NCBI GenBank assembly: GCA_016282145.1
Contig: JAEEJZ010000045.1
Coordinates: forward strand, 1 to 64,000
Source: Bacteroidales bacterium
GTDB taxonomy: Bacteria > Bacteroidota > Bacteroidia > Bacteroidales > UBA932
Length of the DNA: 64,000 nt
Direction of reading: 5' to 3'
Every line of letters begins with the position of its first letter. Positions within the stretch are counted from its first letter, which is position 1. Positions 21,741 to 58,334 of the stretch are shown here, piece by piece. Both the position numbers and the translations under genes were made by a program. The notes beneath the pieces were generated by a model that was given only the letters and a program-made list of their open reading frames with translations, did not search any database and was not told where the DNA came from.

Positions 21741-21805
21741 TTTGCCGCGGAGGGAACATTTACCCGGACAGGGTTGCGCAAGCAACAAGTGACCGTAGCG
21801 GCAAA
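21741..21805 (-). repeat. Core-in-palindrome element E1
   Basis: Core 21758-21788 (revcomp ttgttgcttgcgcaaccctgtccgggtaaat); outer arms tttgccgc/gcggcaaa with imperfect inner pairing. Confidence 0.8.
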
Positions 21806-21851
21806 AGGGCAAAAACAAAGAACAAACAAAAACTAAAAACGTATAAAAATT

Positions 21852-24818
21852 ATGCAAAGTAAAGGTGCAATCCGGCTTGTGGCCATTCTGCTCGCCCTCG
21901 CATGCCTTTGGCAGCTTTCCTTCACCGTGGTATCCAACGTCCAGGCGAAGAAGGCGGTAAAGCATGCGGAAGCGATCGCCGCCGCAGCGCAGGAAGAGGC
22001 CGCTTTCCAGGCGGTCGCCGAAGAGGACCGGGCTTACTGGCTCGACTCCCTCAAGAAAGTGGAAAACCGTCGCTACATCGACTCCATCTCCTCGGAGAAG
22101 GTGTATTTCGGTTACACGTACAAGGATGTCCAGGCTAAGGAAATCAACCTCGGCCTCGACCTCAAGGGCGGTATGAACGTGATGCTGCAGGTGCAGCTCG
22201 AGGACCTGATCAAGGCCCTTTCCAGCAACGCCTCCGATCCCGAATTCATCAGCGCACTCGCCAGCGCGAAAGAGCGCAGCGTGGGTTCGCAGTCCGACCT
22301 GATCACCCTCTTCGCCGAGGAATACGGCAAGGTCAGCGGCGGCAAGCGTCTCGCCCAGGTCTTCGGTACCTATGAGATGCGCGACAAGATCAAACCCGAA
22401 TCCACCGACGAGGAAGTCCTCGCCGTCGTGAAGGGCGAGGCGGAGAGTGCCATCTCCAACTCCTTCAACGTCTTGCGCAACCGTATCGACCGTTTCGGCG
22501 TTACCCAGCCTTCCATCCAGAAACTCGGCAACACCGGCCGCATCCTGGTGGAACTCCCGGGTGTCAAAGAGCCCGAGCGCGTCCGCAAACTGCTCCAGGG
22601 CACCGCTTCCCTGGAATTCTGGACCACCTTCACCAGCACGGAAATCTACCAGTATCTGGTCGAGGCCAACAGCCTCATCGCCCAGATGCAGGGTGAAGAC
22701 AGCGCCGAGGGAGAGGAACTCTCCGAGGAGGAGGCCGCCCGCCGGGCGAATCCGCTCTTCTCCGTCCTGCAGCCTTCCGAGCCCAGCAACAGCGCCTGCA
22801 TCGGTTACGCCAACGCGATGGACACCGTCAAGGTGAACCGCTTCCTGGCCATGCCGCAGGTCGCCGACCTCTTCCCTGCTGAATTCCGGCCGATGTGGTC
22901 CGTCAAGCCCGCCTCTTACCTGAAGAGCGACAACATCTACGAACTCGTCGCCATCAAGGCCGCCACCCGCGACGGCAAGGCTCCGCTTGACGGAAGCGCA
23001 GTCGTGGACGCCCGCGTCTCCTATCCTCAGCAGCGCGGCACCGGCAACCCCACCGTTTCCATGACGATGAACGCCGAGGGCGCCAACACCTGGGCCCGCC
23101 TCACCAAAGAGAACATCGGCAAGCAGATCGCCATCGTGCTCGACGGTACGGTCTATTCCTACCCTGTCGTCAACAGCGAAATCAGCGGAGGCAACTCCGA
23201 GATTTCCGGCAACTTCGACGTGGAGGAAGCCACTGACCTCGTCAACGTCCTCAAGTCCGGTAAACTGCCCGCCCCCGCTACCATCGTACAGGAGCAGGTG
23301 GTCGGACCTTCGCTCGGTGCCGAGTCCATCCGCGCCGGTCTGATCTCCTTCGTCATCGCCTTCCTGCTCGTGCTCCTCTACATGATCCTCTTCTATCAGG
23401 GAGCCGGTCTGGTGGCCAATATCGCCCTGCTGACCAACGTCCTGCTGCTCTTCGGCACCCTCGCCTCCTTCGGCGCCGTGCTGACGCTGCCCGGTATCGC
23501 CGGTCTGGTCTTGACGATGGGTATGGCCGTCGACGCGAACGTGATCATCTATGAGCGTATCAAGGAAGAACTCACCGCCGGCAAGGGCCTGGGCAAGGCC
23601 ATCGCAGACGGTTATTCCAACGCCTACTCCGCCATCATCGACGGTCAGGTGACGACGCTCCTCACCGGTTTCGTGCTCTTCTTCTTCGGTTCCGGTCCCG
23701 TCAAGGGCTTCGCCACGACCCTGATCATCGGTATCATCACCTCCGTGATTACCTCCATCTTCATCACCCGTCTCATCTTTGACGACCGTCTGAAGAAGGG
23801 CAAGGGCATCACCTTCCAGAACAACCTCACGAAGAATATCCTGAAGAACACGCACATCGACTTCGTGAAGGGCCGCAAGATCTCCTACATCCTTTCCGGT
23901 GCCCTGATCGTCATCTCCCTCGTGTCCATCTTCACCAAGGGCTTCACTTACGGTGTCGATTTCACCGGCGGCCGTACCTATGTGGTTCGTTTCGACCAGA
24001 GCGTGACCGCCGAGAGCGTCCGCGCCGCGACCCTGGAAGTCTTCGCCAATGCGGAAGAGAACGCTTCCGTCGAGGTCAAGCAGTTCGGTGGCGAATCCCA
24101 GATGAAGATCACCACCTCCTACAAGTACAAGGATGACTCCAGCAGCGTTGACAACGAAATCGAAAGCATGCTCTACGAGGCCCTCAAGGGCTTCTTCACC
24201 ACCGAGCCCAGCTTCTCCGAGTTCACCTCCACGCTGGATAACCCCAACGGTATCATCTCCTCCGACAAGGTGGGCGCCTCGATCGCCAGCGACATCCGCC
24301 GCAATGCGGTCATCGCGGTCATCATCGCCCTCTTCGTCATCTTCGCCTACATCGCCTTCCGCTTCAAGGGTTGGACCTGGGGCCTCGGCGGCGTCGTTTC
24401 CCTGGCGCATACCGCGATTATCGTCATCGGCTTCTTCTCCCTGTTCTCCGGCATCCTGCCGTTCAACCTGGATGTGGACCAGACCTTCATCGCGGATATC
24501 CTGACCATCATCGGTTACGCCATCAACGACAACGTGGTTATCTTCGACCGTATCCGTGAATTCTCCGGCCTGCATCCCGGCGCCGACTTCAAGGACACGG
24601 TCAACACCGCCCTCAACGCCACCCTCACCCGTACCGTGAACACCTCGGTGTCCACCCTCGTGACGATGCTCGCCATCGCCATCTGGGGCGGCGAGAGCAT
24701 CCGCGGTCTGGCCGTCGCCCTCATCCTCGGTATCTGCATCGGAACCTATGCTTCCATCATGATCGGTACCCCTGTGATGTTCGACGCCACCCGCAAAGCG
24801 GCTGCGAAGAAGAAATAA
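21852..24818 (+). CDS. secDF: Protein translocase subunit SecDF (fusion)
   Basis: GLDLKGGMNVMLQV; GMAVDANVIIYERIKEEL; VDFTGGRTYVVRF; GYAINDNVVIFDRIRE. Confidence 0.98.
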   Translation: MQSKGAIRLVAILLALACLWQLSFTVVSNVQAKKAVKHAEAIAAAAQEEAAFQAVAEEDRAYWLDSLKKVENRRYIDSISSEKVYFGYTYKDVQAKEINLGLDLKGGMNVMLQVQLEDLIKALSSNASDPEFISALASAKERSVGSQSDLITLFAEEYGKVSGGKRLAQVFGTYEMRDKIKPESTDEEVLAVVKGEAESAISNSFNVLRNRIDRFGVTQPSIQKLGNTGRILVELPGVKEPERVRKLLQGTASLEFWTTFTSTEIYQYLVEANSLIAQMQGEDSAEGEELSEEEAARRANPLFSVLQPSEPSNSACIGYANAMDTVKVNRFLAMPQVADLFPAEFRPMWSVKPASYLKSDNIYELVAIKAATRDGKAPLDGSAVVDARVSYPQQRGTGNPTVSMTMNAEGANTWARLTKENIGKQIAIVLDGTVYSYPVVNSEISGGNSEISGNFDVEEATDLVNVLKSGKLPAPATIVQEQVVGPSLGAESIRAGLISFVIAFLLVLLYMILFYQGAGLVANIALLTNVLLLFGTLASFGAVLTLPGIAGLVLTMGMAVDANVIIYERIKEELTAGKGLGKAIADGYSNAYSAIIDGQVTTLLTGFVLFFFGSGPVKGFATTLIIGIITSVITSIFITRLIFDDRLKKGKGITFQNNLTKNILKNTHIDFVKGRKISYILSGALIVISLVSIFTKGFTYGVDFTGGRTYVVRFDQSVTAESVRAATLEVFANAEENASVEVKQFGGESQMKITTSYKYKDDSSSVDNEIESMLYEALKGFFTTEPSFSEFTSTLDNPNGIISSDKVGASIASDIRRNAVIAVIIALFVIFAYIAFRFKGWTWGLGGVVSLAHTAIIVIGFFSLFSGILPFNLDVDQTFIADILTIIGYAINDNVVIFDRIREFSGLHPGADFKDTVNTALNATLTRTVNTSVSTLVTMLAIAIWGGESIRGLAVALILGICIGTYASIMIGTPVMFDATRKAAAKKK

Positions 24819-24838
24819 AAAAAGTTTTCAACAATCAG

Positions 24839-24868
24839 CGCCCGGCCCCCAAAAGGTCGGGCGTTTTT
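24839..24868 (+). terminator. Rho-independent-like terminator after secDF
   Basis: cgcccggcc-cccaaaa-ggtcgggcg followed by ttttt. Confidence 0.8.
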
Positions 24869-24870
24869 GT

Positions 24871-24878
24871 TATCTTTG
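24871..24878 (+). promoter_or_regulatory. -7 promoter motif for dnaE
   Basis: TATCTTTG, 4 nt before the dnaE ATG at 24883. Confidence 0.6.
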
Positions 24879-24882
24879 CACT

Positions 24883-27800
24883 ATGGCGGACTTCGTACAC
24901 CTTCACGTTCATACCCAATATTCCATCCTGGACGGCTTCTCGGCGATTCCCAAACTGTTCGACCGGGTGGAGGAACTGGGCATGAAGGCCGTGGCCATCA
25001 CGGACCACGGCAATATGTACGGCGTCAAGGAGTTCTTCAACTGTGCCAAGAAGCATCCTTCGGTCAAACCCATCCTGGGCTGCGAGGTCTATGTCACGCA
25101 GCACTACGACCACAGGCTCAAGGACAACGAGCACCGCAAGTACTATCACCTGATCCTGCTGGCCAAGAACGCCAAAGGCTACCGGAACCTGACGAAACTC
25201 GTCTCGGCCGGCCACACCGAAGGCTTCTACTACAAGCCGCGCGTCTCCCACGAACTGCTGGAGCAATACCACGAAGGCCTCATCTGCTGCTCCGCCTGCC
25301 TGGCGGGAGAAATCCCCAAGGACATCATGGCGGACGACCTGGAGGCTGCGCGCAAGGCCATCGCCTGGCACAAGAACCTCTTCGGGGACGACTACTACCT
25401 CGAGGTGCAGCTGCACAAGACCGAGGTGCCCGGCGCTACCGAAAAGATGTGGGAGGTCTATCACCAGCAATGCAAGGTGAACGAGCTGATCTTCGCGCTG
25501 GCCGCCGAAACGGGCACCAAGGTCATCGCCAGCAACGATGCGCACTTCATCCGCAAGGAGGACGGTCCGGCGCACGACCGGCTCATCTGCATCTCCACCA
25601 ATGAATATGTCGATGACCCCGACCGCCTGCGCTATACGCAGCAGGAATACATCAAGAGCGCCGATGAGATGGCCGCCCTTTTCCCGGAGCATCCGGAAGT
25701 GCTGGAGAACACCCTGGAAATCGCCGACAAGGTCGAAGCCTATTCCATCGACCGCGGCAACGTCCTCCCGAAATTCAACATCGACCCCCGGTTCCTGAAG
25801 GACATCGATACCTATCTGGAAAAATATAAGGAAATCATCGACGAGGGCCGCTGCGACAAGGACGGCAATCCCCGCGGCGAGGCCTTCTGCACTTCCGTCG
25901 CCTACCTGACTTACCTGACCTACCAGGGCGCGCACGAGCGCTACGGAGAGCATTTGAGCGAAGAACAGCGGGAGCGCATCGACTTCGAACTGAAGACCAT
26001 CTGCCGCATGGGCTTCCCGGACTACTTCCTCATCGTCCAGGACTATATCGCCGCCTCGCGCGCCGCCGGTTCGATGGTCGGACCCGGGCGCGGTTCGGCC
26101 GCCGGCTCCGTCGTCGCTTACTGCCTGAAGATCACCAACCTCGACCCGATCAAATATAACCTGCTGTTCGAGCGTTTCCTCAATCCGGACCGTATCAATA
26201 TGCCGGATATCGACGTGGACTTCGAGAACCTGCAGGTGGCGCACGAGTATGTGGAACGCACCTACGGGACCGACCACGTCTCGCGCGTGATTACCTTCGG
26301 TACGATGGCGGCCAAGAGCGCCATCAAGGATGTCGCCCGTATCAGCCACGTCAGCATAGAAGAATCCAACCGTCTCTCCAAGATGGTCCCGGACCGGCTG
26401 GCGGACGAGAACGGGAAGGACCTGAAAATCACGCTGGATAACTGTTTCAAGTATGTCGCGGCCTTCAAGAAGGAACTTTCAGAGGGAACGACACTGAACC
26501 GCGAGGTGCTGGAATACGCCCGCCAGCTCGAAGGCAGCATCCGCCAGGTGGGCATGCACGCCTGCGCCACCATCATCGGCCCGGGCAACCTTACGGACTA
26601 CATCCCCATCTGCCTTTCCAAGGACAAGGAGACCGGTGAGGATGTATGGACCTCGCAGTACGACGGCCACTACATCGAGGAGGCCGGGATGCTCAAAATG
26701 GACTTCCTCGGGCTGAACACCCTGTCCATCATCCACGCCTGCCTGAACTACATCAAGGAACTGCACGGCATCGATATCGACATCGAAGCCATCCCCATCG
26801 ACGACAAGGAGACCTATGAACTCTACGGGCGCGGCGACACGGTCTGCCTCTTCCAGTTTGAATCGGACGGCATGCGGTCCTGGCTGCAGCGCCTCCACCC
26901 GGAGCGCTTCGAGGATCTGATCGCTATGAACGCGCTCTACCGCCCGGGCCCCATGGACTACATCCCGGACTTCGTGGCGCGCAAACAGGGACAGCAGAAA
27001 ATCGAGTACGACCTCCCGGACATGGAGGAATACCTGAGCGAGACCTACGGCGTCACCGTCTATCAGGAACAGGTGATGTTGCTGTCGCGCAAACTGGCCG
27101 GCTTCACCAAGGGCGAGGCGGACACGCTCCGCAAGGCCATGGGAAAGAAGCAGAAGGCCGTGCTGGACTCCCTCAAAGGCAAGTTCATGGACGGGGGAAA
27201 GGCCAACGGCCATCCCCTCGACACCCTCGACAAGATCTGGAAAGACTGGGAGAAGTTCGCGCAATACGCCTTCAACAAGTCCCACTCCACCTGCTATGCC
27301 TGGGTCAGTTACCAGACCGGCTGGCTGAAGTGCCACTACCCCGCCGAATTCTTCGCCGCCAACCTCAGTTGTTCCGGCACCATCGAAGACATCAAGAAAA
27401 TCATCGGCAACGCCAAGGCGCACGGGATCCAGGTGCTGAGCCCCGATGTCAACGAATCCGCCCAGCACTTTGCCCCGGTCGGGGCGAAGAAGGGTCGCGC
27501 GGAAAAGGTGCGTTTCGGCCTGGGCGGCATCAAGGGCTTCGGTCAGAACATCGTGGACCAGATTATCCGCGAGCGGAAGGAAAACGGGCCCTTCGCAGAC
27601 CTGTACGACTTCTGCGAGCGGCTCTCCGGCGCCCTGAACCGCAAAGCGCTCGAGGCGCTCATCTATGCCGGCGCGCTGGATTCTTTCGGCTTCAGCCGCG
27701 GCCGCTATTTTACGCCCGGAAAGAGCGGGGAACTCTTCATCGACGAACTGACCCGCTACATCGAACTCTGGCGCAACGACAACCTGGATTCCTCCGCATC

Positions 27801-28554
27801 GCTGTTCGGCGCCATCGAAGAACTGAAGCCCGTGCGGCCCGAAGTGCCCGAACTGATCAGCGAAGAAGATACCCTCCAGTTCCTGCAAAAGGAAAAGGAA
27901 TATGTGGGAATGTACCTCTCCACGCACCCGCTGGATGCCCATTCCTTTGAAATCAGGTATTTTACCACCCTGGCGCTCAAAGACATGGACGAGGCCGTCG
28001 CCCGCTGCCAGGAAGAGAACAAGGGGCGGAAAGTACGCATCGCCGGCATCATCACGGACGTGAAGATGATCACCTCGCGCCGCGGCAAGCAGGGCTGCGC
28101 CGTTACGCTCGAAGATTATACGGGGACCTACGAACTGTCCCTCTGGGACAAGGACTTTACCACCTACGTTCCGCTGCTGAAACTACATGCGCAGGTCTTT
28201 ATCTGCGGAGAAATCAAGAACCGGAACAGTTTCCGCAAGGATGAAGCCTTGCCCCCGGAGTATAACTTCCGCATCAACGAGGTACATCTGCTCGGCGATA
28301 TCGCGGCAAAATACCTCAGCGGCCTGCTGTTGACCCTGGAGAAAAAGCAGATTACCCCGGCGTTCCGCAAGTCGCTTACCGCGCTGCTGAAGCGCTTCAA
28401 AGGGGAAACCCCGCTCTATCTGACCCTGATTGACGAGGAAAACCGCTACCGGATTCCTTTCCTTTCCAAGAAATTCCGCATCGCGGTTTCCGAGGAGGCG
28501 CTGGACGGTCTCGCCACCGCCGGCATCCCCTGCGAAGTCTTGATTAAAGAGTGA
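24883..28554 (+). CDS. dnaE: DNA polymerase III alpha subunit
   Basis: PHP domain VHLHVHTQYSILDG; VGPGRGSAAGSVVAYCL; NMPDIDVDF; 1223 aa. Confidence 0.97.
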   Translation: MADFVHLHVHTQYSILDGFSAIPKLFDRVEELGMKAVAITDHGNMYGVKEFFNCAKKHPSVKPILGCEVYVTQHYDHRLKDNEHRKYYHLILLAKNAKGYRNLTKLVSAGHTEGFYYKPRVSHELLEQYHEGLICCSACLAGEIPKDIMADDLEAARKAIAWHKNLFGDDYYLEVQLHKTEVPGATEKMWEVYHQQCKVNELIFALAAETGTKVIASNDAHFIRKEDGPAHDRLICISTNEYVDDPDRLRYTQQEYIKSADEMAALFPEHPEVLENTLEIADKVEAYSIDRGNVLPKFNIDPRFLKDIDTYLEKYKEIIDEGRCDKDGNPRGEAFCTSVAYLTYLTYQGAHERYGEHLSEEQRERIDFELKTICRMGFPDYFLIVQDYIAASRAAGSMVGPGRGSAAGSVVAYCLKITNLDPIKYNLLFERFLNPDRINMPDIDVDFENLQVAHEYVERTYGTDHVSRVITFGTMAAKSAIKDVARISHVSIEESNRLSKMVPDRLADENGKDLKITLDNCFKYVAAFKKELSEGTTLNREVLEYARQLEGSIRQVGMHACATIIGPGNLTDYIPICLSKDKETGEDVWTSQYDGHYIEEAGMLKMDFLGLNTLSIIHACLNYIKELHGIDIDIEAIPIDDKETYELYGRGDTVCLFQFESDGMRSWLQRLHPERFEDLIAMNALYRPGPMDYIPDFVARKQGQQKIEYDLPDMEEYLSETYGVTVYQEQVMLLSRKLAGFTKGEADTLRKAMGKKQKAVLDSLKGKFMDGGKANGHPLDTLDKIWKDWEKFAQYAFNKSHSTCYAWVSYQTGWLKCHYPAEFFAANLSCSGTIEDIKKIIGNAKAHGIQVLSPDVNESAQHFAPVGAKKGRAEKVRFGLGGIKGFGQNIVDQIIRERKENGPFADLYDFCERLSGALNRKALEALIYAGALDSFGFSRGRYFTPGKSGELFIDELTRYIELWRNDNLDSSASLFGAIEELKPVRPEVPELISEEDTLQFLQKEKEYVGMYLSTHPLDAHSFEIRYFTTLALKDMDEAVARCQEENKGRKVRIAGIITDVKMITSRRGKQGCAVTLEDYTGTYELSLWDKDFTTYVPLLKLHAQVFICGEIKNRNSFRKDEALPPEYNFRINEVHLLGDIAAKYLSGLLLTLEKKQITPAFRKSLTALLKRFKGETPLYLTLIDEENRYRIPFLSKKFRIAVSEEALDGLATAGIPCEVLIKE

Positions 28555-29550
28555 TTACGGCGTCGTGACGGGCAGTTCCACGCCGGTGGGCTCCACCAGG
28601 ACGCAGCCGGCTTCCGGAAGCGCCAGGTGGCCGATAATGTCGAAGGTCTGAAAATCCCGACGGAATTTTTCCAGTTTCAGGATGGGCACGGTGAACAGCA
28701 CGCGGAAATCCTCCCCACCGTTCATCGCAGCGCTCACCGGATCGGAATCAATGCTTTTCCCGAGGTCGAAGGAACCTCCCTCGAAGGGAATCTTGTCCGC
28801 ATAGACCTTTACGCCGAGCCCCGTGATCCGGGACAGCGTCTGCATCGCCGCAGCGAGGCCCTTGTCCACCAGGCAGCCCGCCGAGGGATAGATTTCCGAC
28901 GAAGCGAGCAAGGCCGGCAGTTCCGGCTGCAACTCGGGCTTCAGGTAAGCCCCGACGAGCATCTTGTAGCGTTCCATCTCCTCGCTGCCCTGGGCGGAAC
29001 CCGCCTCGAAACGGGTTTTCTCGCGTTCCAGGACCTGCAGGCCCAGGTAAGCCGCACCGAGGCTGCCGCTCACGCAAAGCAGATCCTTGCTCTGCGGCTT
29101 GGGGCGGCGGGAAGCGTCGAGCGCCGGCAGCGTTCCCGTGGCGGCTGCCGCGATGAGGAAGCCGTTGCGCGAGGGCTGCAATTTCAGCTCGAGGCTTTCG
29201 TAGTGATACTGACGGGCCGCGCTGACCACTCCGCTCCAGAACTCCTGCACCTGAGCAAAATCCAGTTTCGCGGAAATTCCGAGGTTCAGGCTCAGGCTCC
29301 GGGGCCGCGCGAGGCGGGCATACAGCGCAGCCGTGACCGCGACGACAGCCTTATAGCCCAAATGCTTGAGCGGGAAATAAACCAGGTCGAAATCGATGCC
29401 TTCGCTCAGCAGCCGTGAGGCGCTGACCACCTGGTCCTTGCCGGCTGCGGCAAAGACCTGCGCATCGGCGCCACGCGTAAAGCCCGAACCCTCAAAAAGC
29501 AGGTTCAGGGCCTCTTCACGACCAATCTGGGCGAATGTCCTTTCCTCCAT
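28555..29550 (-). CDS. ThiL (thiamine-phosphate kinase)-like protein with degenerate active-site motifs
   Basis: SEGIDFDLVYFPLKHLGYKAVVAV, DLLCVSGSLGAAYLGLQVLEREK, MNGGEDFRVLFTVP match the ThiL fold, but GDDAAV, TTD, NxSD, GGDTT and DxSDGL motifs are lost. Confidence 0.75.
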   Translation of the reverse strand: MEERTFAQIGREEALNLLFEGSGFTRGADAQVFAAAGKDQVVSASRLLSEGIDFDLVYFPLKHLGYKAVVAVTAALYARLARPRSLSLNLGISAKLDFAQVQEFWSGVVSAARQYHYESLELKLQPSRNGFLIAAAATGTLPALDASRRPKPQSKDLLCVSGSLGAAYLGLQVLEREKTRFEAGSAQGSEEMERYKMLVGAYLKPELQPELPALLASSEIYPSAGCLVDKGLAAAMQTLSRITGLGVKVYADKIPFEGGSFDLGKSIDSDPVSAAMNGGEDFRVLFTVPILKLEKFRRDFQTFDIIGHLALPEAGCVLVEPTGVELPVTTP

Positions 29551-31088
29551 TAAAGATTGCGGAGGAGGTTGTTCATATTCACCTTCGCGTCAATCATCGC
29601 CTTGAGATTGTCGATGCTGACCCGCTCCTGGGCCATCGTATCGCGGTCGCGGACGGTCACGCAGCGGTCTTCGAGCGACTGGTGGTCGACGGTGATGCAG
29701 AAAGGGGTGCCGATGGCATCCTGGCGACGATAGCGCTTGCCGATGGAGTCTTTCTCCTCGTACTGGCAGTTCATATCGTATTTCAGCAGGTCCATCACCT
29801 CCTGGGCCATTTCCGGCAGACCGTCCTTCTTGACGAGCGGCAGGACCGCCGCCTTCACCGGAGCAAGCGGCGCAGGGATCGAAAGCACCGTGCGCGTCTC
29901 GCCGTTCTCCAGTTGCTCTTCCTTGTAGGAATGGCTCAGCACGGCAAGCACCATACGGTCCACGCCGATACTGGTTTCGATGACATAGGGCGTGTAGGCG
30001 CGGTTCTCTTCGGGATCGAAGTACTCGATCTTCTTGCCGCTGAACTTCTGGTGGTTGCCCAGGTCGAAGTCCGTACGGCTGTGAATACCCTCGAGTTCCT
30101 TGAAGCCGAAGGGGAAATTGAATTCGATATCGGTGGCCGCATTGGCGTAGTGGGCCAGTTTCTCGTGATCGTGGAAACGGTAGTTCTCCGCACCCATGCC
30201 GATGTTCACGTGCCACTTCATGCGGGTTTCCTTCCACTTGGCGAACCAGTCGAGTTCCGTGCCCGGCTTGATGAAGAACTGCATCTCCATCTGCTCGAAC
30301 TCGCGCATACGGAAGATGAACTGGCGGGCCACGATTTCATTGCGGAAGGCCTTGCCGATCTGGGCGATGCCGAAAGGAATCTTCATACGTCCGGTCTTCT
30401 GCACGTTCAGGTAGTTCACGAAGATGCCCTGGGCGGTCTCCGGACGCAGATAAATGGTATTCGCGCCTTCCGAGGTGCTGCCCATAGAGGTGCTGAACAT
30501 CAGGTTGAACTGGCGCACTTCCGTCCAGTTGCAGGTGCCGCTGATGGGGCAGACGATGCCGCAGTCGATGATGATCTGGCGGTACTCGGCGAAATCGTTC
30601 GCCTTCTCCGCCTTCACATAGCGGTCGTGCACCTCGTTCCACTTGGCCTGCTCGCGCAGGACGTTGGGGTTCGTTGCGCGGAACTGCGCCTCGTCGAAGG
30701 CTTCGCCGAACTTCTTGCGGCCCTTCTCCACCTCCTTGTTCATCTTCTCCTCGATCTTGCCGAGGTAATCCTCGATGAGAACATCGGCGCGGTAGCGCTT
30801 CTTGGAGTCCTTGTTGTCGATGAGCGGATCGTTGAAAGCGCCCACGTGGCCGGAAGCCTCCCAGATGCGGGGATGCATGAAGATACAGGAATCGATGCCG
30901 ACGATGTTCTCATGCAGCCGCGTCATCGCGTTCCACCAATATTGCTTGATGTTGTTCTTCAGTTCAGAACCCATCTGGCCATAGTCATAGACGGCGGCCA
31001 GACCATCATAAATCTCACTCGAAGGGAAAATAAAACCGTACTCTTTGCAGTGCGCAACCAGTACCTTGAAAAGTTCGTCCTGTGTCAT
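29550..31088 (-). CDS. glyS: Glycyl-tRNA synthetase (single-chain)
   Basis: EYGFIFPSSEIYDGLAAVYDYGQMGSELKNNIKQYWW; RPETAQGIFVNYLNV; FRNEI. Start MTQDELF at 31088. Confidence 0.97.
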   Translation of the reverse strand: MTQDELFKVLVAHCKEYGFIFPSSEIYDGLAAVYDYGQMGSELKNNIKQYWWNAMTRLHENIVGIDSCIFMHPRIWEASGHVGAFNDPLIDNKDSKKRYRADVLIEDYLGKIEEKMNKEVEKGRKKFGEAFDEAQFRATNPNVLREQAKWNEVHDRYVKAEKANDFAEYRQIIIDCGIVCPISGTCNWTEVRQFNLMFSTSMGSTSEGANTIYLRPETAQGIFVNYLNVQKTGRMKIPFGIAQIGKAFRNEIVARQFIFRMREFEQMEMQFFIKPGTELDWFAKWKETRMKWHVNIGMGAENYRFHDHEKLAHYANAATDIEFNFPFGFKELEGIHSRTDFDLGNHQKFSGKKIEYFDPEENRAYTPYVIETSIGVDRMVLAVLSHSYKEEQLENGETRTVLSIPAPLAPVKAAVLPLVKKDGLPEMAQEVMDLLKYDMNCQYEEKDSIGKRYRRQDAIGTPFCITVDHQSLEDRCVTVRDRDTMAQERVSIDNLKAMIDAKVNMNNLLRNL

Positions 31089-31164
31089 AGCCCGCAAATT
31101 TAGCAAATTCTTATGAAAAAAGCCCGACCTTCATCGGGCCGGGCTCGTATTCATCAAAAGTTTT

Positions 31165-31806: not shown

Positions 31807-31877
31807 GACTTCAATGGTTTTAACGGTTCAACTTCACCCCCTTAATGGCAATAGCCGTGCCAATCGAAAAAATTCGC

Positions 31878-31885
31878 TAATTTTG
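31878..31885 (+). promoter_or_regulatory. -7 promoter motif for ybeY
   Basis: TAATTTTG, 8 nt before ATG 31894. Confidence 0.5.
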
Positions 31886-31893
31886 CACCCGCT

Positions 31894-38129: not shown

Positions 38130-38208
38130 GAAATATCCGGCATCAACGGATGCTTGTTGCTGCGCAACCCTGTCCGGGTAAATGCATCCTTATGATGCCG
38201 AATATTTC
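38130..38208 (+). repeat. Core-in-palindrome element E2
   Basis: Arms gaaatatccggcatcaacggatgc / gcatccttatgatgccgaatatttc around core 38154-38183 ttgttgctgcgcaaccctgtccgggtaaat. Confidence 0.92.
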
Positions 38209-43945: not shown

Positions 43946-44018
43946 AAAATAATACTGTCAGCTAACATTTACCCGGATAGGGTTGCGTCAGCAACAAGTT
44001 AGCTGACAGTATTATTTT
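43946..44018 (-). repeat. Core-in-palindrome element E3
   Basis: Perfect 21-bp arms aaaataatactgtcagctaac / gttagctgacagtattatttt around core 43967-43997 (revcomp ttgttgctgacgcaaccctatccgggtaaat). Confidence 0.96.
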
Positions 44019-45978: not shown

Positions 45979-45982
45979 CGCG

Positions 45983-48787: not shown

Positions 48788-48801
48788 ATTATTGAAGAGA
48801 T

Positions 48802-50127: not shown

Positions 50128-50128
50128 T

Positions 50129-50767
50129 TTGACGGCCCCCTTCATCAAAGCTTTGGAGTTGGCAACCGCGGCTGCGGTTGCCCTCTTCGTTGTTTCCTGT
50201 AAGAGCAAACTTGCGGAGGCGGAAAGGATCGATCCGTCCAAGGCGCCCTCGCAGGAGGTGCGCGGCATGTTCGCCGCGAACAGCACGAACGGCAGCCTTT
50301 CGATGCGTGCGGAAGCGCCGCGGATGCAGCGTTTCGAGACGGATACGTCGACCCTGGAAATCTTTCCGGAAGGTTTTACCGTGTATGCCTATACCGCGGA
50401 GGGGATGCTTGAGACAGTGATTACCGCCGATGTGGCCCGTCACAGGGCCGACAAGCGTTTCAAGGACAATGAGTCCTGGCAGGCCTTCGGCAACGTCATC
50501 GTGAAAAATGTCATCAAGCAGGAACAGATGGAGACGGACACCCTTTACTGGAACAAGGAAAAGAACGAAATCTACACCGACTGCTACGTCAAAATGTATT
50601 CTCCGAGCGGTTTTATGCAGGGTTACGGCATGCATTCCGACGACCGGGCCCGCACGGCCATCATCCACCGTCCCTTCGACAGTTTCGGCTATACGGTGCA
50701 GGATACGACGACGGTTGTCCTTGATTCTGTGAATTTCATCGGTCCATTTTTGCGGAAATCCAACTAA
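50129..50767 (+). CDS. lptC: LPS export ABC transporter periplasmic protein LptC
   Basis: LptC-like fold: FPEGFTVYAYTAEGMLETVITADVARHRADKRFKDNESWQAFGNVIVKNV. Confidence 0.8.
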   Translation: MTAPFIKALELATAAAVALFVVSCKSKLAEAERIDPSKAPSQEVRGMFAANSTNGSLSMRAEAPRMQRFETDTSTLEIFPEGFTVYAYTAEGMLETVITADVARHRADKRFKDNESWQAFGNVIVKNVIKQEQMETDTLYWNKEKNEIYTDCYVKMYSPSGFMQGYGMHSDDRARTAIIHRPFDSFGYTVQDTTTVVLDSVNFIGPFLRKSN

Positions 50768-50819
50768 AATTACTAACTTCGCACCCCAATATCGTTTTTA
50801 ATCAAAAAACTACAATAAT

Positions 50820-52829
50820 ATGGCAGTACTTCAGAAAATGCGCGACAAGTTCGGTCTTGCGATTTCGATTATCATCGCGCTGTCACTACTGTACTTCATC
50901 GCCCCTATGGACGATCTGATGAACATGTTCGGTTCCCGGAAGACGACCGTCGGCGTCATTTCCGACAAGAAGATTTCCTACGAGGACTTCAATGCCGAGA
51001 CGGAACGGTTCAAAACCATCGCCCGGATGAACGGCAACAATGTCAATGAGGAAGACAATTTCCGGAACATGGCCTGGGACTATCTGCTGTCCCGTTATCT
51101 GCTGGTGGAGAACGCCAAGGAGGCGGGCATCACGGTTGGCGATGTGGAACTGGTGAACCAGATTAATGAGAATGTTCCCAAGGAAAACCTGGAAGCCCTG
51201 ATCAACGGTGCGTCCGAACAGGTGGAATATGAAATGTACTGGAAACATCTCCAGAACAGCATCAATATCCAGCAGTACGTCTCCAAGTACGCTTCCCTGT
51301 TCGTGAACGGCGCCGTCTGCAACAAGCTGCTTGCCCAGGCGGAAATGGCCTTCAACAACAGCACCGCGGACGTGGACTATGTCGAGTACATGTATCCCTA
51401 CGTGACCGACACCACCATCGTGGTCAAGGATTCTGAAATCAAGAACTACTACAACGCCCACAAGGAGAATTATAAGCAGAGCGAGAGCCGCGACCTGGAG
51501 TTCGTGCTCTATGAGGTGTCTCCTTCCGCTTCCGACGTCGCCAAGGCATCCGACGCTATCAACGATGCCTATGACGAGTTCTGCACGACCGGAAAGATGA
51601 AGAATTTCCTGTCCAAGAACTCCGACAAGCCCTATGCGGACAGCTGGTACAAGCCCGGTGACCTCAATGTCGTTTCTTCCCAGTTGGAGAAGCAGATTTT
51701 CACCGAGGGCAAGACGGTTACCGGCATCGTGCGCGACGAGGATACCTTCCGCGCCGCCCGCGTGATGGAGACCGCGATGGTCCCCGATTCCGTCTATGTG
51801 AAGCACATCCTGCTCCGCGGTACCGAAATGACCAAGGCGGACAGCCTGATGAATGTCCTGAAGGGAGGCGCTGATTTTGCCGACCTGGCCGCCCGTTTCT
51901 CCGCGGACCAGAATTCTGCGGATGAAGGCGTGAAGGGTAACATCGGCTGGCTGACCCAGAGTTATATGATTCCCGGCTTCGAATCTTCGCTGACCGCAGC
52001 GGTGGGCAAGCCCTTCGTGGTGAAGACGATGTACGGCAACCATATCGTCGTGGTGAGCCGTCGCAGCGCCCCTATCGCCAAGAAGAAGGTGGCCGTGCTG
52101 GAGAAGGCGGCCTATGCCAGCAGCGAGACGCACAATGTCGTCTATGCCAACGCCAAGAAACTCGCCATCCTCGCCGGTGGCAAGTATGAGGGCTACAAGG
52201 CAGCGGTTGATTCGCTCGGCGTCTATTCCCAGAAGCGCAACAAGGTCAGCCGCAGCAACACCCGTTACGGTTCCGCCGAAGACAGCGGAAAGGCGGTGGC
52301 TCGCTGGGCCTTCGAGGCCAAGACCGGCAAGGTCTCCGATGTCATCGAGATCGGCAACTACTATATCGTAGCGGCCGTCACGGGCGCCCGTGAAGAAGGG
52401 TATACCCCGCTTTCCGAGGTTTCTTCCGGTATCCAGAACACGCTCTACAACAAGAAACTGCACGAGAAAGTGAAGGCCGAAGTCGCGGAGAAGATCGCCG
52501 GAAAGGCGACGCTTGCCGAGGTGGCGGAAGCCCTGGGGAGCAGCGTCTCTTCAGAGAAAGAGGCTTCGCTGGCTACCGGTCGCGGTGCGTTTGAGCCCGC
52601 TCTCGCCGGTGCCGTGCTGGTCGCCAAGGAAGGTGAGATCTCCGGTCCTGTGGCCGGTGCCCGTGCCGTTTATGTCTTTACGGTGGCGAACCGTCAGGAG
52701 CAGTCCTTCTTCACCCTTGAAGATGCCCAGATGGAAACGACCCAGAAGGCACAGTACTGCACCCGTCTCTTCGAGCCGGTGATGAGCAAGGCTGCTGACG
52801 TCAAGGATTATAGGGCGAAATTCTATTAG
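50820..52829 (+). CDS. ppiD: Peptidylprolyl isomerase (PpiD/SurA-like)
   Basis: N-terminal TM anchor; parvulin domain VKHILLRGTEMTKADSLMNVLKGGADFADLAARFSADQNSADEGVKGNIGWLTQSYMIPGFE. Confidence 0.93.
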   Translation: MAVLQKMRDKFGLAISIIIALSLLYFIAPMDDLMNMFGSRKTTVGVISDKKISYEDFNAETERFKTIARMNGNNVNEEDNFRNMAWDYLLSRYLLVENAKEAGITVGDVELVNQINENVPKENLEALINGASEQVEYEMYWKHLQNSINIQQYVSKYASLFVNGAVCNKLLAQAEMAFNNSTADVDYVEYMYPYVTDTTIVVKDSEIKNYYNAHKENYKQSESRDLEFVLYEVSPSASDVAKASDAINDAYDEFCTTGKMKNFLSKNSDKPYADSWYKPGDLNVVSSQLEKQIFTEGKTVTGIVRDEDTFRAARVMETAMVPDSVYVKHILLRGTEMTKADSLMNVLKGGADFADLAARFSADQNSADEGVKGNIGWLTQSYMIPGFESSLTAAVGKPFVVKTMYGNHIVVVSRRSAPIAKKKVAVLEKAAYASSETHNVVYANAKKLAILAGGKYEGYKAAVDSLGVYSQKRNKVSRSNTRYGSAEDSGKAVARWAFEAKTGKVSDVIEIGNYYIVAAVTGAREEGYTPLSEVSSGIQNTLYNKKLHEKVKAEVAEKIAGKATLAEVAEALGSSVSSEKEASLATGRGAFEPALAGAVLVAKEGEISGPVAGARAVYVFTVANRQEQSFFTLEDAQMETTQKAQYCTRLFEPVMSKAADVKDYRAKFY

Positions 52830-53926
52830 ACATTAAAGAGGAAGTGCATTATGTCGCCGTCACAGACGACATAGTCCTTCCCTTCAATACCCATTTTACC
52901 GGCGGCCCTTACGGCCGCTTCGGTTTTATATAGCACGAAGTCTTCGTACTTGATGACCTCCGCACGGATGAAGCCTTTCTCGAAATCCGTGTGGATGACG
53001 CCGGCCGCCTTCGGCGCCTTGTCTCCCTTTCGGATAGTCCAGGCGCGGCATTCGTCCGCCCCGGCGGTGAAGAAGGTCTGCAGTCCGAGCAGGTCGTAGG
53101 CGCCCTGGATCAGGCGCACGACGCCGGATTCCTCCAGGCCCATTTCCGCCAGGAACATCTGCCGGTCTTCGTATTCTTCGATTTCCGCGATTTCCGCTTC
53201 CGTCTTGGCTGCGATGACCAGGATGCCTGCGTTTTCCTGCTTTACGGCCTCGCGCACCGCTTCGACATAGGCGTTTCCGCCGGCGGCCGATGCATCGTCG
53301 ACATTGCAGACATAGAGGACGGGTTTGTTGGTGAGCAGGAACAGGTCGTGCGCCATCCTTTCCTCTTCTTCATTGATGAGGGCGACGCTGCGGCAGGATT
53401 TTCCCGCCTGCAGGGCATCGCGGTAGCGGATCAGCAGGGCAGCGAGTTTGGCGGCCTCCTTGTCACCGGCTTTTCCGGCCTTCTCCACCTTGGCAAGGCG
53501 GCTCTCGACGGTTTCGAGGTCCTTGATCTGGAGTTCCGTCTCTACGATTTCCTTGTCACGCACCGGGTCTACGCTGCCGTCCACGTGCACGACATTGCCG
53601 TCATCGAAGCAGCGCAGCACGTGCAGGATCGCATCGCATTCGCGGATGTTCGCGAGGAACTGATTGCCGAGGCCTTCTCCGCGGCTGGCGCCTTTGACCA
53701 GTCCGGCGATATCGACGATATCCACCGTCGCGGGAATGGTGCGCTGCGGTTTGCAGATCTCGGAAAGGGTATCCAGACGGCGGTCCGGAACCGCGGTCGA
53801 ACCCAGATTCGGCTCAATCGTACAAAACGGGAAATTGGCGCTTTGGGCCTTGCCCGAGCTGATACAGTTGAAGAGGGTGGATTTTCCGACGTTCGGCAAG
53901 CCGACGATACCGCATTTGAGTGACAT
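52826..53926 (-). CDS. ychF: Redox-regulated ATPase YchF
   Basis: MSLKCGIVGLPNVGKSTLFNCISSGKAQSANFPFCTIEPNLG; start 53926. Confidence 0.97.
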   Translation of the reverse strand: MSLKCGIVGLPNVGKSTLFNCISSGKAQSANFPFCTIEPNLGSTAVPDRRLDTLSEICKPQRTIPATVDIVDIAGLVKGASRGEGLGNQFLANIRECDAILHVLRCFDDGNVVHVDGSVDPVRDKEIVETELQIKDLETVESRLAKVEKAGKAGDKEAAKLAALLIRYRDALQAGKSCRSVALINEEEERMAHDLFLLTNKPVLYVCNVDDASAAGGNAYVEAVREAVKQENAGILVIAAKTEAEIAEIEEYEDRQMFLAEMGLEESGVVRLIQGAYDLLGLQTFFTAGADECRAWTIRKGDKAPKAAGVIHTDFEKGFIRAEVIKYEDFVLYKTEAAVRAAGKMGIEGKDYVVCDGDIMHFLFNV

Positions 53927-53979
53927 AAGGGCAAACTTTTTACAAAATCGCCACAAATTTACAAATTATTTCATTACGA

Positions 53980-54143
53980 TTGCGGCGGAAGGCAGCTGCC
54001 TACGGGCGGGAGGGGTCGGGCGGTACGCCCCTTCGGGGCTATCCCTCCCATCGCAAGCGATGGGCCCCTCCCACTCACGAGTCGTGGGCGACTACGCCGC
54101 CCGACTCCTCCCGCCCTTCGGATAACGCTGTCTCCCGCCGCAA
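53980..54143. repeat. Multi-hairpin nested palindromic element
   Basis: Outer arms ttgcggcgg/ccgccgcaa; second arms ggcgggaggggtcgggcgg/ccgcccgactcctcccgcc; inner hairpins gcccc-ttc-ggggc (54027-54039), cccatcgc-aa-gcgatggg (54047-54064), cccac...gtggg (54070-54088). Confidence 0.9.
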
Positions 54144-54144
54144 A

Positions 54145-54972
54145 ATGAAGAAAATATTGTGGATAATGGCGTTTTGTCTGCTCTGTGAGGTTGTACGGGC
54201 GGAGGAGCGGGATTCGCTGGTGGTGATGTTTTGGAATGTGGAGAATTTTTTTGAGACGGGGCCGAAGAAGCGGTTTTATGCCAAGTGTCACGCCATTGCC
54301 TCTACGGTGCTGGCGGCCTCTGACGTCTTCGGAAAGGTGCCGGACGTGGTGGCGCTGGCCGAGGTGGAGAACCGTCAGGTGCTCCAGGCGCTGGTGGGCA
54401 CTACGCTGCTGCGCAAACTCGGCTACCGCATCGTCCATTATGATTCTCCAGACCGTCGGGGCATCGACTGTGCCCTGCTCTACCGGGCCTCTTCGCTCAC
54501 GCTTAGCGCCTCTTCGCCCCGCCATCTTTTTGCCGGGGACGGACGCATCCTGCCGACGCGGGATATCCTGCTGGCGGAGTTTCCCGGACTGGATATCCTG
54601 GTCAATCATCACCCTTCCAAAGTGGGGAAGGATTCCGAGGGGAGGCGTGCAATTGCAATGGCGCGGATGCGTTTCCTCTGCGATTCGCTGCGCGCCGCAG
54701 GACATCCTGCGCAGTTGTGCGTGGGCGATTTTAATGACAATCTTTGGGGCTCCCGCGGAGAGGGGTCCATCAAGTATAACGGAAGTTGGGAGAAGATTGA
54801 CGGGTATTTTATGTTTGGGCCGATGGAGGTGCGGGAGACGGTGTTCCATCCCGCATTTTTGAGCGAGCCGGACCCGGCATTCGGCGGCCTGAAGCCGAAG
54901 CGGACCTATGTCGGCCCCGCCTATCATGGTGGGGTCAGTGATCACTATCCCGTTATTTTTTCGCTTTTTTGA
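54145..54972 (+). CDS. Endonuclease/exonuclease/phosphatase family protein, secreted
   Basis: Signal peptide MKKILWIMAFCLLCEVVRA; VMFWNVENFF; VVALAEVENRQVLQAL; SDHYPVIFSL. True start 54145. Confidence 0.9.
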   Translation: MKKILWIMAFCLLCEVVRAEERDSLVVMFWNVENFFETGPKKRFYAKCHAIASTVLAASDVFGKVPDVVALAEVENRQVLQALVGTTLLRKLGYRIVHYDSPDRRGIDCALLYRASSLTLSASSPRHLFAGDGRILPTRDILLAEFPGLDILVNHHPSKVGKDSEGRRAIAMARMRFLCDSLRAAGHPAQLCVGDFNDNLWGSRGEGSIKYNGSWEKIDGYFMFGPMEVRETVFHPAFLSEPDPAFGGLKPKRTYVGPAYHGGVSDHYPVIFSLF

Positions 54973-55038
54973 AAACAGTTTAGTACATTTGCTCCTGTTG
55001 TAGCGGCAGCGAAGCAAATAACCATTAAGTAACAGAAT

Positions 55039-56184
55039 ATGAAAGCAAAAATCCAGGAAAAATTCAAAGCCCTCTACGGAGACGGCGCATCGCTTTATGC
55101 GGCATCGGGACGTATCAATCTGATTGGCGAGCACACCGATTATAATGGCGGTTATGTGTTCCCCGGTGCGATTGACAAAGGCATCATGGCCGCATTTAAA
55201 ATCAACGGGACGGATAAGGTCCGCGCCTTCTCGCTGGACTATAACGAGGAAGCCGTGTTCGGCCTGAACGAGGCGGACAAGCCCGCACAGGCCTGGGCCT
55301 GCTATCTCTTCGGCGTTTGCCGCGAGACCATCAAGCGCGGCGGTACCGTCAAGGGTTTTGATACGGTCTTTGCCGGTGACGTGCCCCTTGGCGCGGGTCT
55401 TTCTTCTTCCGCGGCCCTCGAGAGCTGCTTTGCCTTTGCCATCAATGATGCGTTCGGCAATGGCATCGACAAGTTCGAGCTGGCGAAGATCGGACAGAGC
55501 ACCGAGCACAATTACTGCGGCGTGAACTGCGGTATCATGGACCAGTTCGCTTCCTGCTTCGGCAAGGCTGGCTGCCTGATTCGCCTGAACTGCAAGACCC
55601 TGGAATACAAGTATTTCCCCTTTAATCCGAAGGGCTATAAGTTGGTGCTGCTGGATTCCTGCGTGAAGCACGAACTGGCGTCATCGGCGTACAATTTCCG
55701 CCGTCAGTCCTGCGAGCGTGCCGCGGCCGCCATCAAGAAGAATCATCCGGAGGTGGATTTCCTCAGCGATTGCAAGCGGGTCTGGCTGGACGAGGTGCGC
55801 GACCAGATTTCCGCCGAGGATTTCCTGCGGGCGGAGTATGTGATCGGCGAGGTGCAGCGGGTGCTGGATGTCTGCGATGCGCTCGAGCGCGACGATTACG
55901 AGATCGTTGGCGAGATGATGTATCAGACCCATTTCGGTATGAGCAAACTGTATGAGGTGAGTTGCGAGGAGTTGGATTTCCTCAATAAACTGGCCCGCAG
56001 GATGGGTGTTACCGGTTCTCGCGTCATGGGCGGCGGCTTCGGCGGATGCACCATCAACCTGGTGAAGGACGAGCTATACGATGACTTTGTCGCGGCGGCC
56101 AAGAAGGAGTTCGCGGCGGCGTTCGGCCACGAGCCGAAGGTCTATGACGTCGTCATCTCCGACGGCGCCCGGAAAATTGCATAG
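55039..56184 (+). CDS. galK: Galactokinase
   Basis: ASGRINLIGEHTDYNGGYVFPGAID; DVPLGAGLSSSAALE; MGGGFGGCTINLV. Confidence 0.96.
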   Translation: MKAKIQEKFKALYGDGASLYAASGRINLIGEHTDYNGGYVFPGAIDKGIMAAFKINGTDKVRAFSLDYNEEAVFGLNEADKPAQAWACYLFGVCRETIKRGGTVKGFDTVFAGDVPLGAGLSSSAALESCFAFAINDAFGNGIDKFELAKIGQSTEHNYCGVNCGIMDQFASCFGKAGCLIRLNCKTLEYKYFPFNPKGYKLVLLDSCVKHELASSAYNFRRQSCERAAAAIKKNHPEVDFLSDCKRVWLDEVRDQISAEDFLRAEYVIGEVQRVLDVCDALERDDYEIVGEMMYQTHFGMSKLYEVSCEELDFLNKLARRMGVTGSRVMGGGFGGCTINLVKDELYDDFVAAAKKEFAAAFGHEPKVYDVVISDGARKIA

Positions 56185-56190
56185 TTCCAA

Positions 56191-56273
56191 TAAAAAGGAC
56201 TGGCGGCAACGGATGCTTGTTGCTTCGCAACCCTATCCGGGTAAATGCATCCTAACGCCGCCAGTCCTTTTTA
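56191..56273 (+). repeat. Core-in-palindrome element E4, also a plausible bidirectional terminator
   Basis: Arms taaaaaggactggcggcaacggatgc / gcatcctaacgccgccagtcctttttag around core 56217-56246 ttgttgcttcgcaaccctatccgggtaaat, between convergent genes. Confidence 0.94.
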
Positions 56274-56274
56274 G

Positions 56275-56883
56275 TTATCCGAAATATTGCGCTAACCAGG
56301 CCTGGTCGATTTGGACCGGGCCTTTTGCATTTTCTTCCAGAGAGGGATTGCGCTGGAGGATGCCGCAGCAGTCTTCGTAGACGTTGAGCCCGACGGCCAG
56401 GATGTCCATCTTGCCATCCCGGGGGCAGGCGAAGTGCAGTTCGGCGGCGGCGCCGTCGATGCCCAGGAATTTCAGCGGCAGGTCTTCGCCGGCTTCACGG
56501 GCGGTGACGAATTTGCAGAGTTCGATGGCGATGTCGCTCAGGCCCGCATCGAAAATCTTGATCTTTTCGATGAGTTCGCCGGGGCTGTCCACCAGGCGGA
56601 TATGGTAGTCCTGCATTTCCGGGGTGGAGGAGAGGACATCGATGGCGCGTGTGCGGGCGTCTTCTTCCGCGCCCAGCCAGATCATCAGTTGTGCGTCCGG
56701 ATCGTGGTAGAGGAAGGGGAAGGGGAGCAGTTGCCGGTTCCCGCAGGCTGGACATTGGGCGACGAACAGTTCACCGCTCAGTACGGAGGCTTTTTGCTCG
56801 GGCTGCGTACGGACATTGAGGGAACTGGGAATATCTTTGGAAATGGCGCCGCCGCAACGGGCGCAGTGGGTCTGGATCGTCAT
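56275..56883 (-). CDS. CpXC domain-containing protein
   Basis: THCARCGGAISKDIPSSLNV ... AQCPACGNRQLLPFPFLYHDPD. Confidence 0.8.
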   Translation of the reverse strand: MTIQTHCARCGGAISKDIPSSLNVRTQPEQKASVLSGELFVAQCPACGNRQLLPFPFLYHDPDAQLMIWLGAEEDARTRAIDVLSSTPEMQDYHIRLVDSPGELIEKIKIFDAGLSDIAIELCKFVTAREAGEDLPLKFLGIDGAAAELHFACPRDGKMDILAVGLNVYEDCCGILQRNPSLEENAKGPVQIDQAWLAQYFG

Positions 56884-56932
56884 GACGCAAAATTAGCAAT
56901 TATTTGCCTATCTTTGCCAAAATCGTTTTGTT

Positions 56933-58258
56933 ATGAGAACTGAAGATTGGTTGGCCGTATGGCTGGGATGTATTGTGATTGCCATTGCCTGTCTGTCCGT
57001 TTTGACGGGCTGGTTTGATTTTTCCGCGCTGAAGTTCAGCACCTGGGCCCTGGGAGAGCATCTCAGTGAGGCGGCTGCCGCGAAGGTGGTACCGCTGGGA
57101 GAGCAGTTTGCCGCGTCGGCGTTTTGGTGGAAGTTGCTGCGGACGGTGCTCGTGCTCGGCGTGCTTTTCACCATCGGCATAAAGTTGCAGGGAGGAAGTG
57201 TGAAGAAGTATGTGCCTGCGTTCCTACTGCTGTTTGTGCTGGCGGTCGTGGTGCGGCTGATCAGTGCGGAGTTTACCCTGAACCGCTATCTGGAGTGGGC
57301 TTTCTGGGCCTTGATCGTCGGTTTGCTGATTGCCAATACCGTCGGCGTTCCCGCTTGGCTCAAGCCCGCCGTGCGCACGGAATTCTATATCAAGACCGGA
57401 CTGGTCATCATGGGCTTTTCGGTGCTCTTTTCCAATATCGCCAAGTTCGGCCTGTATGGGCTTGGTATTGCCTGGGTGGTGACGCCGATCGTCATTCTGT
57501 TCATGTGGTGGTTCGGGACGCGCGTGCTGAAAATCGGCAATAAGCCGCTGGTCATTACCATGGCCTCCGCGACGAGTGTCTGCGGTACCAGTGCGGCCAT
57601 CGCGACGGGTGCGGCTTCCGGCTGCAAGAAGGACGACCTGACGATGACCGTTTCCATATCGATTATCTTTACCATTTTGATGATGGCGCTGGAGCCGGTC
57701 CTGATTCGGGCGACGGGCATGTCTGCCCTGATGGGCGGAGCGCTGATCGGCGGGACCGTGGACAGTACCGGTGCCGTCGCCGTGGCCGGCAATGTGCTGG
57801 GCGGCGAGGCGGAGAAGGCTGCGGTGCTGGTGAAGATGATCCAGAATATCCTGATCGGCTTTATCGCTTTCTTTGTGGCGATTTTCTTTGCCACGGCTTC
57901 CCGGCGCGGTAAGGAAGGCAGCGTCGGCGCTTCGGAAATCTGGAATCGCTTCCCCAAGTTCATCATCGGCTTTTTTGTGGCTTCGCTCGTGGCGTCTTTC
58001 CTCATTCAGCCGCTTTGTGGCGCGGATCAGGTGGGAGCGATCAACAAGGTGCTGGACCAGTATAAGAACTGGGCGTTTGTGCTGGCCTTTACCAGTATCG
58101 GCCTGGATACGAATTTCCGGGAGTTGATGAAGCAGATGCAGGGCGGGAAGGTGCTCTGGCTCTACATCGTCGGGCAGGCATTCAATATCGCGCTGACCTT
58201 TGCGATGGTGTGGTTCCTGCTTTCCGGCGTGGTTTTCCCGATTCCGGTTCTCGAGTAA
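56933..58258 (+). CDS. YeiH/UPF0324 family putative sulfate exporter
   Basis: Polytopic; ITMASATSVCGTSAAIATGAASGCKKDDLTMTVSISIIFTILMM; GGTVDSTGAVAVAGNVLG. Confidence 0.92.
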   Translation: MRTEDWLAVWLGCIVIAIACLSVLTGWFDFSALKFSTWALGEHLSEAAAAKVVPLGEQFAASAFWWKLLRTVLVLGVLFTIGIKLQGGSVKKYVPAFLLLFVLAVVVRLISAEFTLNRYLEWAFWALIVGLLIANTVGVPAWLKPAVRTEFYIKTGLVIMGFSVLFSNIAKFGLYGLGIAWVVTPIVILFMWWFGTRVLKIGNKPLVITMASATSVCGTSAAIATGAASGCKKDDLTMTVSISIIFTILMMALEPVLIRATGMSALMGGALIGGTVDSTGAVAVAGNVLGGEAEKAAVLVKMIQNILIGFIAFFVAIFFATASRRGKEGSVGASEIWNRFPKFIIGFFVASLVASFLIQPLCGADQVGAINKVLDQYKNWAFVLAFTSIGLDTNFRELMKQMQGGKVLWLYIVGQAFNIALTFAMVWFLLSGVVFPIPVLE

Positions 58259-58260
58259 GT

Positions 58261-58334
58261 GGGCAGTTATCCCTTCGGGGACTTGTTGCTTCGCAACCCT
58301 GTCCGGGTAAATGTCCCCTTCGGGACAACTGCCC
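58261..58334 (+). repeat. Core-in-palindrome element E5
   Basis: Arms gggcagttatcccttcggggac / gtccccttcgggacaactgccc around core 58283-58312 ttgttgcttcgcaaccctgtccgggtaaat; begins 2 nt after the YeiH stop. Confidence 0.93.

Follow-up and report, generated by a model that had tools for sequence, protein, structure and literature searches.

The DNA analysed here, a 64,000-nucleotide stretch from a Bacteroidales bacterium (hereafter, the window), harbors, at five places, a small mobile DNA element that is non-autonomous, ~80 nt long in its intragenic form, and often longer in intergenic regions. A near-invariant core of ~30 nt forms the apex of a palindrome whose arms are specific to each locus. 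The element constitutes a family, is spread among species of the genus, has moved recently, occurs in both orientations, bears locus-specific perfect stems, and has inserted in frame into genes. An invariant apex over a stem that differs at each site and yet is paired is a feature neither of REPs, nor of MITEs, nor of integron attC sites, and it points to hairpin-templated DNA synthesis.

The five elements of the original prediction were re-found on the strands and at the coordinates given below, and each of their cores is an exact match to the consensus; the arm scores measure complementarity counted outward from the core, and the classes are described further on.

E1, 21741..21805, − strand: core at 21758-21788 (TTGTTGCTTGCGCAACCCTGTCCGGGTAAAT on the − strand), between divergent genes
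E2, 38130..38208, + strand: class A, core at 38154-38183, just 5' of hflX, arm score 18
E3, 43946..44018, − strand: core at 43967-43997, directly upstream of frdA, arm score 24
E4, 56191..56273, + strand: class A, core at 56217-56246, between the 3' ends of convergent genes, arm score 18
E5, 58261..58334, + strand: core at 58283-58312, at a gene 3' end, arm score 15

The elements are placed between divergent, tandem, and convergent genes, and no core match was obtained in 100 dinucleotide shuffles of the window. The arms of E2 and E5 (GGGCAGTTatCCCTTCGGGGAC/GTCCCCTTCGGGacAACTGCCC for the latter) pair near-perfectly, and those of E3 form 20-21 perfect base pairs (fold z −8.7), are AT-rich, and differ from the class A consensus. 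E4 combines 17 and 6 pairs in its arms (TAAAAAGGACTGGCGGC/GCCGCCAGTCCTTTTTA) and, since it is located between convergent gene 3' ends, may now also serve as a two-way terminator. E1, with outer arms TTTGCCGC/GCGGCAAA and a partly mismatched inner arm, has an arm score of 9, the lowest among the 39 copies of the host genome.

These 39 exact copies of the core were counted in the 2.0-Mb host genome (G000; every genome used in this work is a draft MAG), the reversed pattern used as a control giving none. The exact core is absent from the 36 same-genus and 24 same-order genomes tried first, and a scan of GTDB genomes recovered it in three relatives, i.e., RGIG3510 (goat rumen), RUG11938, and RUG478. 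Variants of the core are present in 20 of the 121 species sampled in the genus (control matches, 0), with a nearly homogeneous version in each species, for instance GCTTCGCGACCCTGTACGGGCAAATG in G019 or GCTTCGCAGCCCTGTACGGGTAAATG in G020, G126, and G136. Judging from the sequences, this homogeneity looks like the picture of a recent within-species amplification or of concerted conversion. Decayed older copies, searched for within 3-6 edits of the core, were not found in the window. Nor was the core found in viral contigs, or in phages and plasmids, where a 32-nt query makes such tests weak. Literature searches gave no match to the core string and no account of such elements in Bacteroidota. 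In G126, G136, and G020 (L224, L225, and L226), class A elements form short tandem arrays with a period of ~80-130 bp, adjoining purM.

The core is predicted to fold, as ssDNA, into two hairpins, GYYGC-TTC-GCRRC and CCT-n4-GGG, atop a stem of 20-24 bp, and when the window elements are folded as ssDNA, two small hairpins indeed crown the stem (z −4.8 to −8.7). The GTTGC-n3/4-GCAAC mini-hairpin of the original prediction is supported by compensatory changes: across the genus, the pairs GTTGC/GCAAC, GTCGC/GCGAC, and GCTGC/GCAGC are found, with 12 two-sided compensatory cells and 96.5% of pairing vs 29-43% in slid-partner controls. Concerning the arms, the mean score is 15.3 for arms of the same locus, 3.1 for arms taken from different loci, and 0.9 for shuffled arms (maximum 9), so that the conserved apex on locus-specific stems, announced as the reverse of ordinary REP or attC sites, is supported. 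The fear that most genomic copies of the core would lack flanking inverted repeats was unfounded: the score is at least 9 for 39/39 copies of G000, and only 5 of the 77 copies over all genomes fall below.

The claim that arms differ between loci has to be amended, as the arms are not unrelated and most G000 copies belong to class A or class B. Class A (approximately ...TGCAACAACGGGCAC-core-GTGCCCTAACGTTGCA...) is made of a 6-bp inner stem at the core, an internal loop of 3/4 nt (AAC/TAAC), and an outer stem of 8-17 bp; class B (...CTGTGTCAGAAGTCCTCTGCTCC-core-GGTCGCAGAGGACAACCCGCCACAG...) is longer and has additional internal loops. Positions 1-11 of the class A outer arms are paired in 77-100% of copies, while copies agree with each other at only 24-47%. 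The same is seen in G019, whose 13 copies are of class C: at positions 10, 14, 17, and 19, 85-100% of copies are paired, with a between-copy identity of 23-29%, i.e., at background. Pairing ends there at ~20-23 bp, and a weak arm consensus extends to about position 18, identity reaching 78-85% at positions 11 and 15. One long conserved repeat was considered as a simple explanation and rejected, the core being constant and the arms different.

In the window genome, the copies are intergenic or located at gene ends and are not in frame within genes. In RUG478, 8/8 copies are in frame within protein genes (biotin carrier protein, M20 peptidase, M16 protease, helix-hairpin-helix protein, DNA polymerase I, glycosidase-like protein, alpha-2-macroglobulin, and prephenate dehydrogenase) and, in G019, 13/13 copies lie within long ORFs. 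The genes interrupted in other species include CysS, AtpG, AtpB, Fmt, DnaX, and a YfhO-like protein; Pfam domains support CysS, AtpG, Fmt, and TyrA. PolA, DnaX, AtpB, YfhO, and the other names are given from sequence reading only. Translation runs through the core in at least three frames (LRDPVRANAP, AFARTGSRSDAE, and HLPGQGCEATR). Moreover, GGGCAAATG replaces GGGTAAATG in 20 of the 21 class C copies of G063 and G019, which removes a stop codon (TAA) from the core.

The comparison of orthologous loci revealed empty, filled, and flipped sites, and the element is therefore mobile DNA, not an RNA gene. The E2 site is empty in RUG11938, both arms being missing, and the core and both arms of E3 are missing from RGIG3510 and RUG11938. 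Between G000 and its sisters, empty sites were also found at L012, L015, L022, L024, and L034:5958, and L011 and L034:4953 are filled in both. L006 and L020 are filled in the opposite orientation relative to RUG11938, and L021 and L035 carry class A in one genome and class B in the other. Many gene sites are common to several species, with the core flipped and the stem changed yet paired. Indeed, the core is on the + strand in G117 and G125 and on the − strand in G028 and G080 at the CysS site; + in G063 and − in G080 at the M20 site; and + in G097 and G005 and − in G019 at the DnaX site. The empty sites compared are strongly diverged, and neither a target duplication nor a transposition event was seen among them. 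Not every empty site can be taken as ancestral, because that of the G005 AtpG gene proved to be a deletion derivative: relative to the G080 gene (L213), the left arm and the core are gone exactly (54 nt, in frame) in G005 (L302), and the right arm is kept. The G005 gene thus reads as a natural half-deleted element, and some other empty sites may likewise be decayed elements, e.g., the Fmt site of G080, which resembles a left-arm remnant. Upstream of hflX, RGIG3510 (L116) has a different long palindrome, with another tip and the arms GAGAAAGTTTTATCTGTCTAAAAAC/GTTTTTAGACAGGCAAAACTTTCTC, which suggests further families of such elements.

The reading that we tentatively favor, and that we consider nearly as likely to be right as wrong, is that a protein recognises the mobile core and that the stem of the element is built anew at each site, the target flank being copied by fold-back. 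Its strictest form, in which the mobile DNA would carry the apex alone and the stem would be ~20 nt of flank (two helical turns) copied in inverted form, even in frame in essential genes, is put forward with more reserve. The core, a candidate recognition site, would probably be recognised as folded ssDNA by a host or mobile protein and would be inserted in either orientation; the hairpin end would then fold back and be extended along ~20 nt of the flanking strand. Of the two arms, one would come from the target and the second would repeat it in inverted form, and the stem would not be inherited intact. With such a fold-back on the flank, each locus would acquire a perfect stem of its own, and either orientation would be allowed. 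What we observe are the products, whereas a step of folding back, a hairpin intermediate of ssDNA, and a dedicated enzyme are inferred.

Several sites bear on this proposal. In the M20 gene, the left arm of G080 (GCAGAAGGCATGGGCC) and the core-less orthologue of G005 (GCAGAAGACATGGGCC) are alike at 17 positions over 19 nt into the arm, and 0/60 shuffles were as good, in a test that covers few genes, shuffles single alignments, and ignores the choice among orthologues. The right arm of G080 (GGCCTATGCCTTCTG) is an inverted copy of the left arm and is missing from G005. One native-like arm is also found at Fmt (G005 vs G080) and, on the right side, at YfhO (G028 vs G034), the CysS and TyrA comparisons being ambiguous. 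Both arms present with the core absent is not the state of most empty orthologous sites: neither arm is seen in the orthologues of E2 and E3, and at M20 and Fmt close relatives show a single arm-like sequence. The net gain relative to uninterrupted orthologues is ~60 nt (56 for M20, 58 for A2M, and 65 for TyrA) for hairpins of 78-85 nt, and is therefore short by one arm. On the other hand, the arm-like M20 stretch of G005 is itself not conserved in G081, and both arms of L024 are missing from the sister genome, which argues against fold-back copying. The near-constant stem length and the weak arm consensus also count against it, because a pure target copy predicts neither; coding selection may lie behind the weak consensus.

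The last two features are those expected if the arms of the same mobile element travel with the core and diverge later, pairing being kept by self-templated correction or by selection on the hairpin. Template switching or cruciform conversion would then let one arm rewrite the other and the apex flip, or else selection would act on a hairpin serving mobility. This explanation is possible, though we find it doubtful rather than likely. It agrees with the TyrA site shared by G019 and G063, in which changes are paired (TCAGAGG/CCTCTGA vs TCAGGGG/CCCCTGA); with the outer arms of L011/L072, strongly different and both self-complementary; and with L006/L043, where the outer arms are similar and the part enclosed by them is inverted. 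The "empty" AtpG and Fmt sites resemble remnants as well, and remnants in such relatives leave arm co-evolution open beside fold-back copying. On the contrary, shared sites bear the core variant proper to each species (CCCTGTACGGG in G019, CCCTRTCCGGG in G063), which suggests a recent separate insertion or a whole-core conversion; a net insertion one arm shorter than the element also disfavors travelling arms. The entry of the core into the loop of pre-existing palindromes (terminators or REPs), both arms being older host sequence, is unlikely. The original prediction had evoked an ssDNA module targeting hairpin loops, and a mobile module of the ssDNA/hairpin type does fit best; strict loop targeting is not seen at most empty sites. 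It is kept alive by the core-less CysS site of G081, which has a small palindrome (GAAGGGGAGGCGTCCCCTTC), by CGTC-type REP palindromes at the A2M, YfhO, and M16 sites of sister species, and by the terminator-like stem of E4. However, the empty orthologues of E2, E3, L012, L015, L022, and L024 have no palindrome with the corresponding arms, the M20 site of G005 has one arm only, and a near-constant stem of 20-24 bp is unexpected for arbitrary host palindromes.

The original prediction had also envisaged a structured RNA or an RNA-protein binding loop. The elements would then be a family of regulatory RNAs or terminators dispersed through numerous transcription units, the apex forming a pocket for a protein or a ligand. 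The leader position of three window copies and the 3'-end position of the two others, the stable RNA folds of the tested elements (z −4.9 to −8.2), and the covariation of the core hairpin would suit such an RNA. An RNA function is nevertheless very improbable for the family, because copies are in frame within genes of other species and orientation is free, being opposite at orthologous loci; gene contexts are mixed, most species of the genus are without the element, and no Rfam covariance model reached its gathering score anywhere in the window. Slightly less improbable, but still improbable, is a REP family moved by a RAYT (TnpA_REP), an enzyme of the HUH class. RAYT-like genes are frequent in the genus, two being present in G000, and in G020 a RAYT and a class A copy are separated by ~300 bp. 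No protein of the window had been assigned to the elements, and none is assigned now, but a RAYT/Y1-transposase-like ORF had been missed at 13115-14086 (+ strand). It has an MPNHVHLLLSG motif, a PF01797 E-value of 0.014 (below cut-off), and relatives in RUG11938 and RUG478, and its ends are other repeats, two perfectly matching direct copies of 131 bp (12983-13113 and 14274-14404). Indeed, the RAYTs inspected in most detail bear other palindromes or repeats at their ends: in the assembled parts, the core flanks neither this ORF, nor the RAYTs of G000 L103 and G020 L098 (other repeats), nor those of the other RAYT loci inspected. RGIG3510, with more than 30 copies, yields no PF01797 match, and the stem foot has no GTAG/CGTC-type tag. 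On the present evidence (Y1_Tnp search and flank inspection), a RAYT is thus rejected as the mobiliser. An autonomous parent element was also rejected as an explanation of the cores ~1.16 kb apart in G020, G126, and G136 (three places), since the gene between them is purM, which has a housekeeping role. The searches made yielded no mobilising enzyme. The second G000 RAYT (L103) is flanked by palindromes (TGTCGATACCCTC.../...GAGGGTATCGACA, at L103 1251-1288 and 2305-2396), presumably its own REP.

By analogy, the Rickettsia palindromic elements (RPE) appear to be the nearest in behavior and REPs the nearest in form. RPEs are ~150 bp long, comprise ten families, and encode a conserved peptide (PMC10969869, PMC3733652). 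Like them, the present elements are short dispersed palindromes that occupy both intergenic regions and, in frame, protein genes unrelated to each other, with no mobiliser found here either; they are set apart, by description, by the conservation of the ~30-nt apex only, the lack of a conserved peptide, the locus-specific stem, and the Bacteroidales host. REPs are 20-50 nt long and carry their conserved tag at the foot of the stem (PMC3733652, PMC8266576). REPs or REPINs with their RAYT share with the present family the small palindromes, the tens of copies, the species-specific variants, and the possible location inside genes; here, on the contrary, the apex is conserved, no conserved foot is seen among the 77 copies nor in class C, and no RAYT linkage was found. 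Similarly, integron attC sites have conserved ends and a variable center, of which the present element is the reverse. An ssDNA-hairpin architecture is also that of IS200/IS605, and the ends of these elements and MITEs resemble our family in being non-autonomous and mobile; unlike MITEs, it has no conserved terminal inverted repeats (outer-arm identity falls to background) and no parent transposon was found. Quasi-palindrome correction makes or restores perfect inverted repeats by self-templated synthesis. Fold-back priming in yeast has the same outcome (PMC10622511). Both are known as repair or mutation processes; neither is known as a way of inserting a dispersed element.

The in-frame insertions in CysS, AtpG, AtpB, Fmt, PolA, and DnaX also offer a natural test of how far protein loops tolerate added sequence. 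Rickettsia is the main group from which palindromic repeats spreading within bacterial genes have been described. The present family is a separate case, from gut Bacteroidales: it covers many species, offers sites with and without the element, and inserts in two ways (intergenic and in frame), so that the mechanism becomes testable by comparison. Other repeats occupy genes of this genus. CGTC-type REP palindromes (TGTCATTTCGAG... and TGTCATTCTGAGCGAAGCGAAGAATCT) are in frame in conserved genes, i.e., M16 (L171, L186), A2M (L325, L334), and the YfhO-like gene (L295, L296), at the same positions as the present element in sister species. A second in-frame repeat, encoding GGSAPLLSPCGSRPISPQDKPSD, was observed in two unrelated genes, the M20 peptidase of G063 (L137 ORF) and the Fmt of G019 (L307).
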